A DNA stretch of 64,000 nt from Gemmatirosa kalamazoonensis (GTDB lineage: Bacteria > Gemmatimonadota > Gemmatimonadetes > Gemmatimonadales > Gemmatimonadaceae). The stretch covers positions 2,092,220 to 2,156,219 of the forward strand of contig NZ_CP007128.1 in the NCBI RefSeq assembly GCF_000522985.1, in the 5' to 3' direction. The position numbers and the translations under genes are program-made. Within the stretch, counting starts at the first letter, position 1. Each line of letters starts with the position of its first letter. The notes under the pieces were generated by a model. It had not been told where the DNA came from, made no database searches, and saw only the letters and a program-made list of their open reading frames with translations. Positions 22,356 through 28,808 of the stretch are shown piece by piece.

Positions 22356-24359
22356 ATGTCGCGCACGTCTCTCGCCCGGCACGCGCTCGCCCTCTCGCTG
22401 CTCGCGGCGTGCGCCGGCGGCGACTCGGCGGTGACCTCCACGACGACGCCGACGCCGGGCGCGATCACCGTCGTCAGCGGCGGCGCACAGTCGGGCACCG
22501 TCGGCACCACGCTGTCCTCGTCGGTCGTCGTGCAGGTCGCGACGACCGCGGGCGCACCGGTGCAGGGTGCCACGGTGGCGTTCGTCGTCTCGTCAGGCGC
22601 CGCCACGCTCTCCGCGTCGAGCGCGGTCACCGACGCGAGCGGGCTCGCGAGCACGCAGGTCACGCTCGGCACCGCCGCCGGAAGCGTCGTCATCGGCGCG
22701 TCGGTGCAGGGAACGAGCATCGCCACGACGATCACCGAGACCGCGGTGGCGGCGGAGATCACGGCGCCGTGCACGCCCACGTCGCTCGCCGTCGGCGCGA
22801 CGGCGGTGCAGAGCGGCTCGTCGGTGTGCCTCGACGGCGGCACGTCCGGGGCGGAGTACGCCGTCATCCCGTTCAACGGATCGAGCAGCAGCGCGACGCG
22901 CGCCACGTTCGTCGTGCAGGCGGCCGGCGTGCAGCCGGTGAGCACCGTGCTCGCGAGCTCGGCGCCGACCGGCGGCCTCGCGACGTTAGGCGCGTCGGCG
23001 TCGGTGAGCCCGCGCGCGCAGTTCGAGCGCCGGCTGCGGGCGACCGAGCGCGCGGCGCTGTCGCCGATGGTCGGCACGGCCCGCGCGTGGTACACGGCGC
23101 GGCGCGGCGGCACCACGGCGCGGCTCGACGTCATCCCGGCGAATCCCACGTTGGGCACGGTCGTCTCGCTGAACGCGAACGCCGACGACGCGTGCACGCG
23201 TCCGGAGATGCGCGGCGCGCGCGTGATGGCGGTCGGCAGCAAGGCGATCGTCGTCGCAGACACGCTGAACCCGTCCGGCGGCTTCACGCAGGCCGACTAC
23301 GCCTCGATCGCCGCGACGTTCGACACGCTCGTCGACGCGGTCGACACGAAGAACTTCGGCCAGCCCACCGACATCGACGGCAACGGCCACGTCATCCTGT
23401 TCTTCACGAGCGCCGTGAACGCGCTCACGCCGCGCAACGCCGACTACTACATCGGCGGCTTCTTCTACAGCCGGGACCTGTTCCCCACCACGGCGACGAA
23501 CGGCCTCGAGGCGTGCGCGTCGAGCAACGTCGGCGAGATGTTCTACCTCGTCGTGCCGGATCCGTCGGGCGCGATCAACGGCAACGCGTTCTCGAAGTCG
23601 TTCGTCACGAGCGCCACGATCGCGACCACGGCGCACGAGTACCAGCATCTCATCAACTCCTCGCGCCGCCTGTACGTGAACACCGCCGCCACCGACTTCG
23701 AGGAGACGTGGCTCGATGAGGGGCTCGCGCACGTCGCCGAGGAGCTCGTGTTCTACGCGCGGTCGGGGCTCGCGCCGCTGAAGAACCTCGACGCGGCGAC
23801 GCTGCGCGCGAACGCGATCTTCCGCGCGGCGTTCAACGACGAGGGGATCGACAACTTCGGGCGCCTGTCGTCGTACCTCGAGGATCCGTCGAGCAACTCG
23901 CCCTACGCCGACGACGACTCGCTCGCCACGCGCGGCGCGACGTGGAGCTTCCTGCGGTGGGCCGTCGATCACCAGGCGGCCGCGCAGGACGTGGTGTGGC
24001 AGCGGCTCGTGAACTCCACGACGACGGGGCTCGCGAACCTGCGCCAGGTCTTCGGCAGCGATCTCGCGCCGCTGTTCCGCGACTGGGCGACGTCGCTGCT
24101 GCTCGACGACGTGGCCGGCGTCGCGACGCAGTGGCAGGAGCCGAGCTGGAACGAGCGCTCCATCCTCGACGCGATCACGTCGACGAGCACCTACCCGCTC
24201 GCCACGCGCGCGCTGTCGAGCGGCGCGCCGACGACGCTGTCGGTGCGCGGCGGAAGCGCGGCCTACCTGCGCTTCACGGTGGCCGCGGGGCAGACGGGCA
24301 CGGTGAGCTGGACGACGACCGGCGCGTCGGGCGCCGTCACCGTCGCGCGGCTGCGCTGA
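22356..24359 (+). CDS. Secreted M30-like zinc metalloprotease lipoprotein with Ig-like domain
   Basis: 667 residues from ATG 22356. The signal ALALSLLAAC (Cys 16 or so) is a lipobox. Residues about 30-130 form a Big_1-type immunoglobulin-like domain (GGAQSGTVGTTLSSSVVVQV, AGAPVQGATVAFVVSSGAAT, VTDASGLASTQVTLG). The peptidase part has HEYQH (H427-H431, an HExxH zinc site) followed by EETWLDEGLAHVAEE about 22 residues later, which matches the HExxH...WLxEG pattern of family M30 (hyicolysin-like). Residues after 560 form a C-terminal beta domain. A secreted or surface protease; its 3' end overlaps the convergent crtB gene by 23 nt. Confidence 0.85.
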   Translation: MSRTSLARHALALSLLAACAGGDSAVTSTTTPTPGAITVVSGGAQSGTVGTTLSSSVVVQVATTAGAPVQGATVAFVVSSGAATLSASSAVTDASGLASTQVTLGTAAGSVVIGASVQGTSIATTITETAVAAEITAPCTPTSLAVGATAVQSGSSVCLDGGTSGAEYAVIPFNGSSSSATRATFVVQAAGVQPVSTVLASSAPTGGLATLGASASVSPRAQFERRLRATERAALSPMVGTARAWYTARRGGTTARLDVIPANPTLGTVVSLNANADDACTRPEMRGARVMAVGSKAIVVADTLNPSGGFTQADYASIAATFDTLVDAVDTKNFGQPTDIDGNGHVILFFTSAVNALTPRNADYYIGGFFYSRDLFPTTATNGLEACASSNVGEMFYLVVPDPSGAINGNAFSKSFVTSATIATTAHEYQHLINSSRRLYVNTAATDFEETWLDEGLAHVAEELVFYARSGLAPLKNLDAATLRANAIFRAAFNDEGIDNFGRLSSYLEDPSSNSPYADDDSLATRGATWSFLRWAVDHQAAAQDVVWQRLVNSTTTGLANLRQVFGSDLAPLFRDWATSLLLDDVAGVATQWQEPSWNERSILDAITSTSTYPLATRALSSGAPTTLSVRGGSAAYLRFTVAAGQTGTVSWTTTGASGAVTVARLR

Positions 24360-25293
24360 ACGCGCCGCGCGGCCCGAGGTCGAGCAGCGCCCGCGCCGCG
24401 AGCGTGAGCTTGCGGCGCGGGCGCACCCACGCGCGTCGGCCGAAGACGTCGTAGTCGGCGCGCCGGATCTCGTCGTGGATGCCCAGGTAGACGCGCGCCG
24501 CCACCGCGGTGGCGCGGCGGAACCCCGGCGGCAGCACCGGCAACGCCTCCCGCGCGTCGTCGTACGCCGCCTCCGCTTCCGCCATCAACGACTCGGCCAG
24601 GGCGCGCCACCCGTCGTCGTGCGGCACGCCGCCGAGCCCCCACGCCGAGAGGTGGAACGACGACACGCCGTGCACGGCCATCAGATCGGCGGGGAGGTAC
24701 ACGCGGCCGTGCCACAGGTCGTCGCCCACGTCGCGCAGGATGTTCGTGAGCTGCATCGCGTGCCCGAGCCGCGCGGCCCGCGACAGCGCGAACGCGCCGC
24801 GCACGCCGAACAGCTCGGAGAGCCAGAGCCCCACCGTCGACGCGACGCGGAACGTGTACACGCGCAGCGCGTCGAGCGTGGGGTAGCGCACGCGGCGCAG
24901 ATCCATGCGCACGCCCTCGATCAGCTCCTCGGCGTGGCGCAAGGGCACGTCGTGTCGCCGCAGATCGCCCACGACGCGCTCGAGCAGCGGCACACCGGAC
25001 ACGCCGCCGGCGTGCTCGAGGCGCAGCAGGGAGAGCCACGCGTCGAGACGCGCTTCCGTGCGCCGCGCGTCGTCGGCGTCGCCGACGTCCACCAGGTCGT
25101 CGGTGAAGCGGCAGAACGCGTACACGGCGGCGATGCGGTCGCGGTCCGCGGCGTCCAGGCAGCGCGCGGCGAACCGGAACGAGCGGCCATGGCGCGCCAT
25201 GTACGCGAGCCAGCCGTCGCGTGGCGGATCGACGAGCGCGCGGAGCTCGGCGACGTCGGCGTGGTGCGGCTCGATCCGCAGCAGCGACGTCAC
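24337..25293 (-). CDS. crtB: Phytoene synthase (squalene/phytoene synthase family)
   Basis: 318 residues from a GTG whose last two bases form the TGA stop of cruF (GTGA), so translation is coupled. It joins two geranylgeranyl diphosphates into phytoene, the first carotenoid step. Both aspartate-rich motifs are intact: FCRFTDDLVD (60-69) and LTNILRDVGDDLWHGRVYLP (182-201). The length fits the family. Squalene synthase-like activity cannot be ruled out from sequence alone, but the neighbours crtI and cruF make phytoene synthase most likely. Confidence 0.95.
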   Translation of the reverse strand: MTSLLRIEPHHADVAELRALVDPPRDGWLAYMARHGRSFRFAARCLDAADRDRIAAVYAFCRFTDDLVDVGDADDARRTEARLDAWLSLLRLEHAGGVSGVPLLERVVGDLRRHDVPLRHAEELIEGVRMDLRRVRYPTLDALRVYTFRVASTVGLWLSELFGVRGAFALSRAARLGHAMQLTNILRDVGDDLWHGRVYLPADLMAVHGVSSFHLSAWGLGGVPHDDGWRALAESLMAEAEAAYDDAREALPVLPPGFRRATAVAARVYLGIHDEIRRADYDVFGRRAWVRPRRKLTLAARALLDLGPRGAFSAAARR

Positions 25294-26174
25294 CGCAGGA
25301 CGCTCTGCAGCAGCGCGCACCCCGAGAGCGCGCCGACGGTGACGAGGACGGCGCCCCAGTACCCGGCGGCCGCGGTCATGCCTAACGGGAGCGCGAGGTT
25401 CGTCGCGTAGAACGCGGCGACCCACCGGCGGTCGAGCCGCGCGGTCCACGCGCCGGCGCCGAGCCGCACGAGGATCGCCATCAGCGCGAGCCCCGTGACG
25501 AACCAGCCGACGAGGTTCGACCACGGCATGCCGTAGTACGGGCCGGTGCCGCCCCACAGCCAGTACGTCGTGACGCGGCTCATCGCGGGGTCGAGCGCGA
25601 GGTCCCACGACAGCAGCACGAGCGCGCCGAGGACGACCGTCGCCGCGGGATGCGCGCGCCGCGCGAGCGCGAGCGACGGCACGGCCATCGTGAACCAGCT
25701 CAGCGGGATGAGCACGGGCACGTGGCCGAACCACTTCGCGCCGAGGCCGTCGGTGTAGTGGTACGGGCCGAACGGCAGGCCGACCGTGGTGCCTAACAGC
25801 TCGCTCGCCAGGCTCGCCGCGTACACGGCGGCGAGGGCGGGGAGCCAGCGCGCGCCCGCGACGTGGACGAGCGCGACGGCGAGCGCGACGAACGCGAGCG
25901 CGACCTGCGTGCGCGCGAAGAACGTGAACGCGACCGCGTAGACCGGTCCCGCGCCGGGATAGCGCGCGAGCAGGTCGGGGTGACGTCCGAAGACGGCGAA
26001 GCCCGCGAGCGCGGCGGCGGTGAACCCGACGAGCGCGACGAGCGCGCCGAGCGCGATGCGCGCGCCGAGCGCCGCGCGCGCGGGACGCAGCGGAGTCTGA
26101 CGCCACGGGGCCCTTTCCCATCCTGCCCCATCCACTTCCACCCGTGACGCCAGACTGCGCGTGCCTCCCCCCAT
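25290..26174 (-). CDS. cruF: CruF-type carotenoid 1',2'-hydratase (membrane protein)
   Basis: 294 residues, about seven membrane helices. The family (DUF422, CruF) signature is clear: ELLGTTVGLPFGPYHYTDGL and later LSWDLALDPAMSRVTTYW and GPYYGMPWSNLVGWFV. CruF adds water to the psi end of gamma-carotene or lycopene-type carotenoids, giving hydroxylated tails. The first 35 residues look weakly coding, so GTG 26141 or 26135 may be the true start. It is transcribed away from carH through the minus-strand promoter at 26220-26248 and is followed by crtB. Confidence 0.88.
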   Translation of the reverse strand: MGGGTRSLASRVEVDGAGWERAPWRQTPLRPARAALGARIALGALVALVGFTAAALAGFAVFGRHPDLLARYPGAGPVYAVAFTFFARTQVALAFVALAVALVHVAGARWLPALAAVYAASLASELLGTTVGLPFGPYHYTDGLGAKWFGHVPVLIPLSWFTMAVPSLALARRAHPAATVVLGALVLLSWDLALDPAMSRVTTYWLWGGTGPYYGMPWSNLVGWFVTGLALMAILVRLGAGAWTARLDRRWVAAFYATNLALPLGMTAAAGYWGAVLVTVGALSGCALLQSVLR

Positions 26175-26219: not shown

Positions 26220-26248
26220 AGGTTAACCGCCTGTCCATGCTCTGTCAA
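26220..26248 (-). promoter_or_regulatory. Sigma-70-like promoter for cruF-crtB
   Basis: Read on the minus strand: TTGACA (26248-26243), 17-base spacer, TAACCT (26225-26220). The -35 box is a perfect consensus and lies inside an inverted repeat shared with the opposite promoter. The cruF ATG is about 40 bases beyond the expected start of transcription. Confidence 0.7.
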
Positions 26249-26276
26249 ATTTATTCTGGTGCCGATATTTGACAGA
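26241..26276. promoter_or_regulatory. Operator-like inverted repeat TCTGTCAAAT-N16-ATTTGACAGA
   Basis: Ten-base perfect arms at 26241-26250 and 26267-26276. Each arm contains the TTGACA -35 box of one of the two divergent promoters, so a protein bound here would control both operons at once. A second palindrome, GTTGTACAAC (26278-26287), fills the spacer of the plus-strand promoter. The adjacent carH gene is the obvious candidate for the binding protein. Confidence 0.75.
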
Positions 26277-26297
26277 AGTTGTACAACGGCCTATCCT
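26269..26297 (+). promoter_or_regulatory. Sigma-70-like promoter for carH-crtI
   Basis: TTGACA (26269-26274), 17-base spacer, TATCCT (26292-26297). The -10 box ends only seven bases before the ATG of carH at 26305, so the transcript should start at or next to the initiation codon. This implies leaderless translation. Confidence 0.75.
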
Positions 26298-26304
26298 CCT
26301 GCGC

Positions 26305-27327
26305 ATGCCGACGCCGTCCGAGCCCGCCGACCACGCGGAGCCGCGCTACCCCATCCGCGTCGCCGCGCGACGGGCCGGGCTCACCACCGCCACCGTCCGC
26401 GCCTGGGAGCGCCGTTACCGCGCCGTCGCGCCGGCGCGCACCGAGACCGACCGCCGCCTCTACTCCGAGGCCGACATCGAGCGGCTCCGGCTCCTGCGCG
26501 CGCTCGCCGCGGCGGGACGGTCCCTGACCGATCTCTCGCGGGTGCCGACGACGCGCCTCCGCGCGCTCGTGGAGGGGCTCGCCGAGCCACGCGCGGCCCG
26601 CACGCCGCGAACGGCTCGCGCGGCGGCGGCGCGCGGCCGCGAGCCCGCGGTGCTCGGCGCGCTGCTCCGCGCGTGCGACGCCGCGGTGCGCGACATGGAC
26701 GCGCCGAAGCTCCAGACGCTGCTCGGCCGCGCGCTCGTCGGCCTGCCGCCGCGGCCGTTCTTCGAGCGTGTCGTCGTGCCGCTGCTGCGCCGCGTCGGCC
26801 GGCTCTGGGAGCGCGGCGAGATCACGGTCGCGCACGAGCACGCGGCGGCCGTCGCCGTGCGGCAGGTGCTCGGCTGGATGCTCGAGACGTTCCGCGCCGC
26901 GAACGAGTCGCGCGGCGCCGCGTGGAGCGACACCGCGCCGGCGCTCGTCGCCGCCACGCCGCAGGGCGAGCGGCACGAGCTCGGCGCGCTCATGGTCGCC
27001 GTGCTCGCCGCGGCGGCCGGATGGCGCGTCTCCTACCTCGGCGCCGACCTTCCGGCGGCGGACATCGCGGCCGCGGCGCGCAAGGCGAGCGCGCGCGTCG
27101 TCGCGCTCAGCGTCGTGGTGCCCGGCGCCGGCGACGCGATCGAGCCCGAGCTGCGCGCCCTGCGCGCCGCGCTCGACGACGAGGTCGCGCTCCTCGTCGG
27201 CGGCGCGGAGGCGCCCGGGCACGCGGGGCTGCTCGCCGCGTTAGGCGCGGCGCGCGTCGAGCGCCTCCGCGGCGTCGGCCCGTGGCTCGCGGAGCACGCC
27301 GCGCGACCTTCGGCACGTTCGGCGTGA
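26305..27327 (+). CDS. carH: CarH/LitR-like B12-dependent MerR-family photoreceptor-repressor
   Basis: 340 residues from ATG 26305. Residues 14-80 are the MerR helix-turn-helix (YPIRVAARRAGLTTATVRAW, RRLYSEADIERLRLL). Then comes a four-helix bundle with W168, E178 and H179 in LWERGEITVAHEH, and a cobalamin-binding Rossmann domain with E222-x-H224-E-L-G (the B12-ligand motif) and YLGADLP. The Trp-x9-Glu-His spacing and the ExHxxG motif equal those described for Thermus CarH, which binds adenosylcobalamin in the dark, represses carotenoid genes as a tetramer and falls apart in light. The gene sits between divergent carotenoid operons and its stop overlaps crtI (GTGA). Confidence 0.92.
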   Translation: MPTPSEPADHAEPRYPIRVAARRAGLTTATVRAWERRYRAVAPARTETDRRLYSEADIERLRLLRALAAAGRSLTDLSRVPTTRLRALVEGLAEPRAARTPRTARAAAARGREPAVLGALLRACDAAVRDMDAPKLQTLLGRALVGLPPRPFFERVVVPLLRRVGRLWERGEITVAHEHAAAVAVRQVLGWMLETFRAANESRGAAWSDTAPALVAATPQGERHELGALMVAVLAAAAGWRVSYLGADLPAADIAAAARKASARVVALSVVVPGAGDAIEPELRALRAALDDEVALLVGGAEAPGHAGLLAALGAARVERLRGVGPWLAEHAARPSARSA

Positions 27328-28808
27328 CGCGGCGCGGCCGCGCGCGCTCCGTCGTCGTCGGCGCGGGACTCGGGGGCCTCGCCGCGGCGATCCGCCTGCG
27401 CGCGCGGGGCGACGACGTCGTGCTCGTCGAGGCGCTCGACCAGCCGGGCGGCCGGGCGCGCACGTTCCGCCGCGACGGCTACACGTTCGACGCCGGCCCC
27501 ACCGTCATCACCGCGCCGTACCTGCTCGACGAGCTGTTCGCGCTCGCCGGCCGCGACCGCCGCGACTACGTGTCGCTCGTGCCGGTGGATCCGTTCTACC
27601 GCATCCTCTTTCACGACGGCGCGACGTTCGACTACCACGGCGACGAGGAGCGGCTGCTCGCCGAGATCGAGCGACTGAGCCCGCGCGACGTCGACGGCTA
27701 CCGACGGCTCGCGCGCGTGGCCGAGCGCATCTTCGACGTCGGCTACACGCGGCTCGCCGATCAGCCGTTCGATCGGCTGTCGACCATGCTGCGCGTCGTT
27801 CCCGACATGGTGCGGCTGCGCAGCCATCGGTCCGTCTACGCACTCGTGGCCGAGCACGTGCGCGACGAGCGGCTCCGGCAGGCGCTCACGTTCGAGCCGC
27901 TGCTCGTCGGCGGGCACCCCTTTCGTGCCTCGTCGATCTACCTCCTGATCCACTGGCTCGAGCGGAAGTGGGGCGTCCACTTCGCGTTAGGCGGCACGGG
28001 CGCGATCGTCTCGGCGCTCGCGCGGCTGCTCGAAGAGATGGGCGGCGAGCTGCGGCTCTCGGCGCCCGTGGAGCGGATCCTCGTCGGCCGCGGCGGTGCC
28101 GTGGAGGGCGTGCGCCTCGCGTGCGGCGAGACGCTGCGTGCCGACCGGGTGGTGTGCAACGCGGATCCGACCACGGTGTACGCGCAGCTCGTCGACGCGC
28201 GTCACCGCCGCGTGCACGCCGATCGCCGCGTCGCGCGCGTGCGGCAGTCGATGGGGCTGTTCGTCGGCTACTTCGGCGTCGACCGCGCGTACCCGGCGCT
28301 CGCGCACCACACCATCGTGCTCGGGCCGCGGTATCGCGGGCTGCTCGACGACATCTTCGTGCGGCGCCGCCTCGCCGACGACTTCTCGCTCTACCTCCAC
28401 GCACCCACGCGCACCGATCCGTCGCTCGCCCCGCCGGGACACGACGCGATGTACGTGCTCTCGCCGGTGCCGAACCTGAAGGCCGACGTCGACTGGACAC
28501 GCGAGGGCGCGGCGTACTTCGACCGCGTGCTCGACGCGCTCGAGCGGCGCGTGCTGCCGGGCCTCGGCGGCGCGCTGACGACGCGCTTCCACATGACGCC
28601 GCTCGACTTCGCGCGCGACCTGCGATCGGCCGACGGCGCGGCGTTCGGCCCCGAGCCGCTGCTCACGCAGTCGGCGTGGTTCCGCTACCACAACCGGAGC
28701 CCCGACGTCGACGGGCTGTACTTCGTCGGCGCGGGGACGCATCCCGGCGCGGGCGTCCCCGGCGTGCTCTCCTCCGCGAAGGTGCTCGAGCGGATCCTGG
28801 ATCGTTAG
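27324..28808 (+). CDS. crtI: CrtI-type phytoene desaturase
   Basis: 494 residues from a GTG that overlaps the carH stop. An N-terminal FAD-binding fold (SVVVGAGLGGLAAAIRLRARG, with the E-type ending VVLVEALDQPGGRA) and the family signature DGYTFDAGPTVITAPYLLDELF are present, and the C-terminus has GLYFVGAGTHPGAGVPGVLSS, the conserved CrtI FAD motif. It oxidises phytoene to neurosporene/lycopene at the membrane. Co-transcribed with carH. Its TAG stop is formed by a CGTTAGGC word that also provides the stop of the convergent chrA gene. Confidence 0.96.
   Translation: MTRRGRARSVVVGAGLGGLAAAIRLRARGDDVVLVEALDQPGGRARTFRRDGYTFDAGPTVITAPYLLDELFALAGRDRRDYVSLVPVDPFYRILFHDGATFDYHGDEERLLAEIERLSPRDVDGYRRLARVAERIFDVGYTRLADQPFDRLSTMLRVVPDMVRLRSHRSVYALVAEHVRDERLRQALTFEPLLVGGHPFRASSIYLLIHWLERKWGVHFALGGTGAIVSALARLLEEMGGELRLSAPVERILVGRGGAVEGVRLACGETLRADRVVCNADPTTVYAQLVDARHRRVHADRRVARVRQSMGLFVGYFGVDRAYPALAHHTIVLGPRYRGLLDDIFVRRRLADDFSLYLHAPTRTDPSLAPPGHDAMYVLSPVPNLKADVDWTREGAAYFDRVLDALERRVLPGLGGALTTRFHMTPLDFARDLRSADGAAFGPEPLLTQSAWFRYHNRSPDVDGLYFVGAGTHPGAGVPGVLSSAKVLERILDR

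Follow-up and report, generated by a model that had tools for sequence, protein, structure and literature searches.

Described CarH operators

The published binding unit of CarH is an 11-bp direct repeat, nnnnTnnACAn, whose copies, arranged in tandem, cover the −35 box, the −10 box or both (PMC9304148; PMC8156234). Known CarH tetramers occupy unidirectional arrays of three to four repeats, and in myxobacteria binding extends to operators in which one or two repeats are accompanied by degenerate copies (PMC9304148). A common orientation is what the described operators show rather than a formal requirement. The CarA/CarH operator at PB of Myxococcus xanthus was read as an inverted repeat first and as 11-bp direct repeats later (PMC9304148); its repeats lie over the −35 box, as at the locus analysed here, but PB is one promoter with one operator of ~55 bp. 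The crtI-carH and crtE-crtD intergenic operators of Sorangium cellulosum likewise serve divergent carotenoid promoters, with light- and B12-dependent control by CarH there and predicted control here; in S. cellulosum, however, one unidirectional three-repeat site overlaps both promoters, whereas at the present locus the two promoters have separate, mirrored arrays (PMC9304148).

The crtB/carH intergenic region of Thermus thermophilus HB27 was used as positive control and gave the repeats TGTACA, TTGACA and TATACA in one orientation, a TTGACA-N17-TACCCT promoter and a carH ATG lying 35 nt downstream from where the −35 box begins. This locus was missed when plasmids were searched by tblastn with the CarH of the window (the whole stretch of 64,000 nucleotides that was analysed), and was recovered with T. 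thermophilus CarH as the query. Shared by both loci are 11-bp TnnACA repeats with the −35 box inside one and the next in the spacer in the same register, a TANCCT −10 box, a distance of ~35 nt between −35 box and ATG, and a divergent carotenoid synthase gene. Thermus has three repeats in a single orientation, whereas the window has two opposed arrays of two, and such mirrored arrays are absent from the T. thermophilus crtB/carH intergenic region. Perfect repeats per operator number two per side in the window versus three in T. thermophilus and four in B. megaterium.

The binding unit, the regulator, its mechanism and the type of site were known already; apparently new is the mirrored pair of arrays that share an 11-bp spacing and recur in different genera of a single phylum. 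No description of mirrored CarH arrays was found in the open literature, and the papers naming both Gemmatimonad- and CarH were, by title and abstract, apparently not about CarH.

Divergent promoters and predicted operator repeats

Two 10-bp arms, TCTGTCAAAT (26241-26250) and ATTTGACAGA (26267-26276), form a perfect inverted repeat with 16 bases between them, correct to the base in the original prediction. The TTGACA in each arm, the 17-nt spacers and the −10 boxes TATCCT and TAACCT were also located as predicted: the carH-crtI promoter, TTGACA-N17-TATCCT, lies on the plus strand at 26269-26297 (−35 at 26269-26274, −10 at 26292-26297), and the cruF-crtB promoter, TTGACA-N17-TAACCT, on the minus strand at 26220-26248 (−35 at 26248-26243, −10 at 26225-26220). 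The minus −10 box is weak (3/6), and a promoter scan of the window reported the plus promoter only. TTGACA-N17-TAGCCT was found in a relative with matching gene context (L010/L092). Transcription is predicted to start at 26304-26305, at the ATG, for carH-crtI and at ~26213 for cruF-crtB. Within 26292-26305, the carH ATG lies at or beside the expected start, at the same distance as in most relatives and Thermus. From the start of the −35 box to this ATG there are 36 nt in the window and 34-37 nt in 69/96 relatives; given this conserved distance in the window, Thermus and relatives, leaderless carH transcripts are predicted.

By sequence, the inverted arms correspond to the leading repeats of two outward-facing arrays, each of two predicted 11-bp CarH repeats in tandem. 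In the plus operator, repeat 1, ATATTTGACAG (26265-26275), was identified by the tandem-repeat scan, fits nnnnTnnACAn and holds the −35 box; repeat 2, AAGTTGTACAA (26276-26286), lies in the −35/−10 spacer exactly 11 bp from repeat 1, also fits, and has the register of the Thermus repeat TATACA. A degenerate third slot, CGGCCTATCCT (26287-26297), holds the −10 box TATCCT, and a TnnACA match is absent from it. On the minus strand, repeat 1, AAATTTGACAG (26242-26252, with the −35 box), and repeat 2, AGCATGGACAG (26231-26241, in the spacer and exactly 11 bp from repeat 1), fit nnnnTnnACAn as well, followed by a degenerate slot, GCGGTTAACCT (TnnACc; 26220-26230), with the −10 box TAACCT. Each side comprises two perfect repeats and one degenerate slot that together overlap the −35 box, spacer and −10 box; the two arrays are opposed and each alone is unidirectional. 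Between them lies a 12-bp centre (26253-26264), unmatched in the window and often occupied by a repeat in relatives.

The mirror-image promoters with −35 boxes in inverted arms were thus as described in the original prediction, but the units that CarH is predicted to bind are direct repeats of 11 bp, a pair on each side, and not the dyad itself. The element GTTGTACAAC (26278-26287), proposed as an extra palindromic site in the plus-strand spacer, was correctly placed, but as a separate site it was rejected: it corresponds to repeat 2 of the plus array. A stronger response of carH-crtI had been derived from it; a counterpart on the minus side, AGCATGGACAG (26241-26231), had been overlooked, and with a second repeat in both arrays there is no basis for that difference.

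Because the window has a GC content of 73%, perfect inverted pairs of 10 bp are common in it (100 with spacers of up to 30 bases); the present pair is the sole one with at least six A/T in an arm. The only minus-strand TTGACA in the 64-kb window is the −35 box of the cruF-crtB promoter. None of 20,000 first-order Markov shuffles contained TGTCAA-N(9-32)-TTGACA, and none contained TnnACA pairs in tandem on both strands. In the 7.48-Mb genome, TGTCAA-N(16-24)-TTGACA was found at two places, in the window and at C4:748001 (control 0), and TTGACANNNNNTNNACA gave exactly two matches, both in this region (reversed control 0).

CarH protein and flanking genes

The carH gene (26305-27327, plus strand) encodes a MerR DNA-binding domain and B12-binding domains (PF13411, PF02607, PF02310). 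Both motifs said to define CarH, Wx9EH and ExHxxG (PMC8156234), are present: WERGEITVAHEH of the window aligns to WHRGEIGVAEEH, and ERHELG to ERHEIG, of T. thermophilus CarH (5c8d). Wx9EH caps the adenosyl group and ExHxxG provides the lower axial histidine. The NCBIfam CarH model NF052513 was the best family match at 99.5 bits, under its cut-off of 400, which appears to be set for close relatives; this cut-off serves for naming and does not describe a mechanistic trait.

Downstream of carH lies a crtI-family phytoene desaturase gene (27315-28808, plus strand, start codon approximate; PF01593, with TIGR02734 above cut-off). On the minus strand are a cruF-like carotenoid 1,2-hydratase gene (25290-26174; PF04240, CruF models under cut-off) and a crtB-like squalene/phytoene synthase gene (24337-25293, with the CDS start inside the frame; PF00494, HpnD and CrtB models under cut-off). 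The crtB assignment rests on context because HpnD scores higher, though below its own cut-off.

With good confidence, the region is read as two back-to-back CarH operators, each over its own promoter, directed towards carH-crtI (plus) and cruF-crtB (minus). Of all explanations, this one best accounts for the observed sequence anatomy, genome-wide uniqueness, cofactor-site residues and cross-genus conservation. Shared control of both operons by CarH, as first proposed, is supported to the extent that predicted CarH operators lie on both sides.

Conservation in relatives

The sample covered 63 genera and nine families, with 143 distinct regions upstream of carH; many of the relatives are draft or metagenome-type assemblies, carH starts are approximate and only perfect repeats were scored. 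A search of genome contigs for related loci returned three, one of them useful. One relative, CP070829.1, belongs to the Gemmatimonadales. Across the 143 regions, tandem TnnACA pairs with a period of 11 were scored 70 times towards carH (plus) and 111 times away from it (minus); the remaining periods between 6 and 21 yielded 0-10 matches each, and carH coding DNA, used as control, gave 1/143. Tandem 11-bp repeats were present in 107/143 regions, in both orientations in 42 and in one orientation only in 65 of the 107; the other 36/143 relatives had no perfect tandem repeats. When the loci were widened to as much as 20 kb, almost all tandem pairs lay at the carH promoter.

These counts bear on the view that the inverted arms are nothing more than good −35 boxes belonging to two divergent promoters of the sigma-70 type, with no CarH binding there. 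TTGACA is the −35 consensus, and two copies head to head suffice to give the repeat. This view is nevertheless very improbable: the second repeats stand exactly 11 bp off on both sides, beyond any need of a −35 box, period 11 is far above other periods in relatives, and repeats without TTGACA follow the same 11-bp lattice.

The original prediction had suggested a search for the same repeat beside carH in relatives; when this was run, the repeat recurred, with TGTCAA-N(18-22)-TTGACA in 38/63 genera and seven families. Spacers of 21 (39 cases), 20 (14) and 19 (10) prevailed, with small groups at 9-10 and 30-32, and the convergent control gave one match. Distances from T to T between opposed repeats clustered at 11, 22 and 33 bp; 155 of 208 genus-level cases fell in the bins 10-11, 20-22 and 31-33, versus 24% expected, a comparison whose p-value is not literal because the bins were chosen post hoc and genera are not independent. 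With a repeat in the central slot, the spacing was 21 in 29/35 cases and 20 in the remaining six; with the slot empty, it ranged over 18-21. A same-face requirement on opposed arrays is plausible, since pure slippage fails to predict that the empty-centre cases lie near two helical turns.

CruF is the product of the divergent gene in eight loci from six genera. Five loci from five genera match the window in having two full repeats on each side. In G010, two full repeats on each side accompany the gene order crtB-cruF/carH-crtI and a CarH that is 43% identical. In many relatives, though not in the window, a second minus-strand array is present ~53-75 bp before the carH −35 box (peaks at 53, 64 and 75). 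It is separated from the first array by about four helical turns and lies close to where the divergent transcript should begin.

Proposed mechanism

By analogy with homologues, CarH would bind, repress and respond to light at this locus as follows. In the dark, AdoCbl-CarH would sit on each array, covering the −35 box, spacer and −10 box of both promoters. In the light, the Co-C bond would be broken, CarH would disassemble and the DNA would be freed, after which both operons would be expressed, carH itself included. Each array probably acts alone, because 65/107 array-bearing relatives have a single orientation, Thermus has one array and known tetramers bind unidirectional arrays. Adjacent CarH assemblies may touch, since the arrays lie ~two helical turns apart on one DNA face; such contact would be without direct precedent.

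According to the original prediction, a single tetramer could block both promoters. In the form of one CarH tetramer that spans the centre, binds both orientations and blocks both promoters as a unit, this is unlikely: known complexes bind single-orientation repeats, 65 of the 107 array-bearing relatives have a perfect tandem array in one orientation alone, and T. thermophilus manages with one array beside two divergent genes. What such bridging would explain is that opposed repeats share a helical face at distances quantised to 11/22/33, with a spacing that stays at 18-21 also where no repeat fills the centre; the tetramer, moreover, has four DNA-binding domains on flexible linkers, just three of which are engaged in the Thermus complex (PMC9304148; PMC8156234). 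The in-phase spacing leaves room for cooperation or bridging.

A refinement compatible with two back-to-back operators, and put forward tentatively, is that two CarH assemblies, one per array, cooperate across the centre to give sharper joint switching. The same in-phase spacing (11/22/33, and 18-21 with an empty centre) is consistent with it, but 11-bp steps could likewise arise by slippage or unequal crossing between repeats of that length, and common ancestry accounts for part of the count. Also possible, though doubtful, is a two-way 11-bp lattice throughout the phylum on which CarH forms a single in-phase complex over both arrays, so that one light event switches two operons. If true, this joint complex would be a mode of CarH-DNA assembly absent from solved complexes. 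The spacing variants of 11, 22 and 33 form a natural set in which to study how CarH tetramers meet on DNA.

Back-to-back operators of this kind would extend B12-based light control to the phylum of the Gemmatimonadales, with a mirrored operator in several families.

Genes divergent from carH in relatives

In 63/143 relatives, from 38 genera, a secreted fasciclin protein (FAS1, PF02469) is the product of the gene opposite carH, and in others this gene encodes a DUF378, SRPBCC or DUF2911 protein; L034, L035, L101 and L102 are example loci for such non-carotenoid divergent genes. The FAS1, DUF378, SRPBCC and DUF2911 genes are candidates for light control outside carotenoid synthesis, and their position opposite carH suggests that the light regulon in the phylum is broader than pigment synthesis.

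Other sites in the genome

Tandem TnnACA matches at C3:940384/940420 were rejected as CarH sites, as they form hairpin arms built from GGACAGGAT repeats; the locus (L089, G000:C3:940384-940436) is a terminator-like hairpin with tandem GGACAGGAT units on each arm and no relation to CarH. A second CarH-like protein is encoded at L002 (G000:C4:780914-781879) and has V, R, H and E at the W, E, H and axial-H positions; because the B12 residues are missing, it looks, by sequence, CarA-like and B12-independent. Around it, seven tandem repeat sites, five with TTGACA, lie within 38 kb (C4:744200-781929). Gene calling at C4 ~750-759 kb is unreliable, and a very long frame there is probably no gene. The C4 repeat sites lie near groES/groEL and near genes for a phosphoketolase, a DUF4070 radical SAM protein and an RsbRD_N protein.
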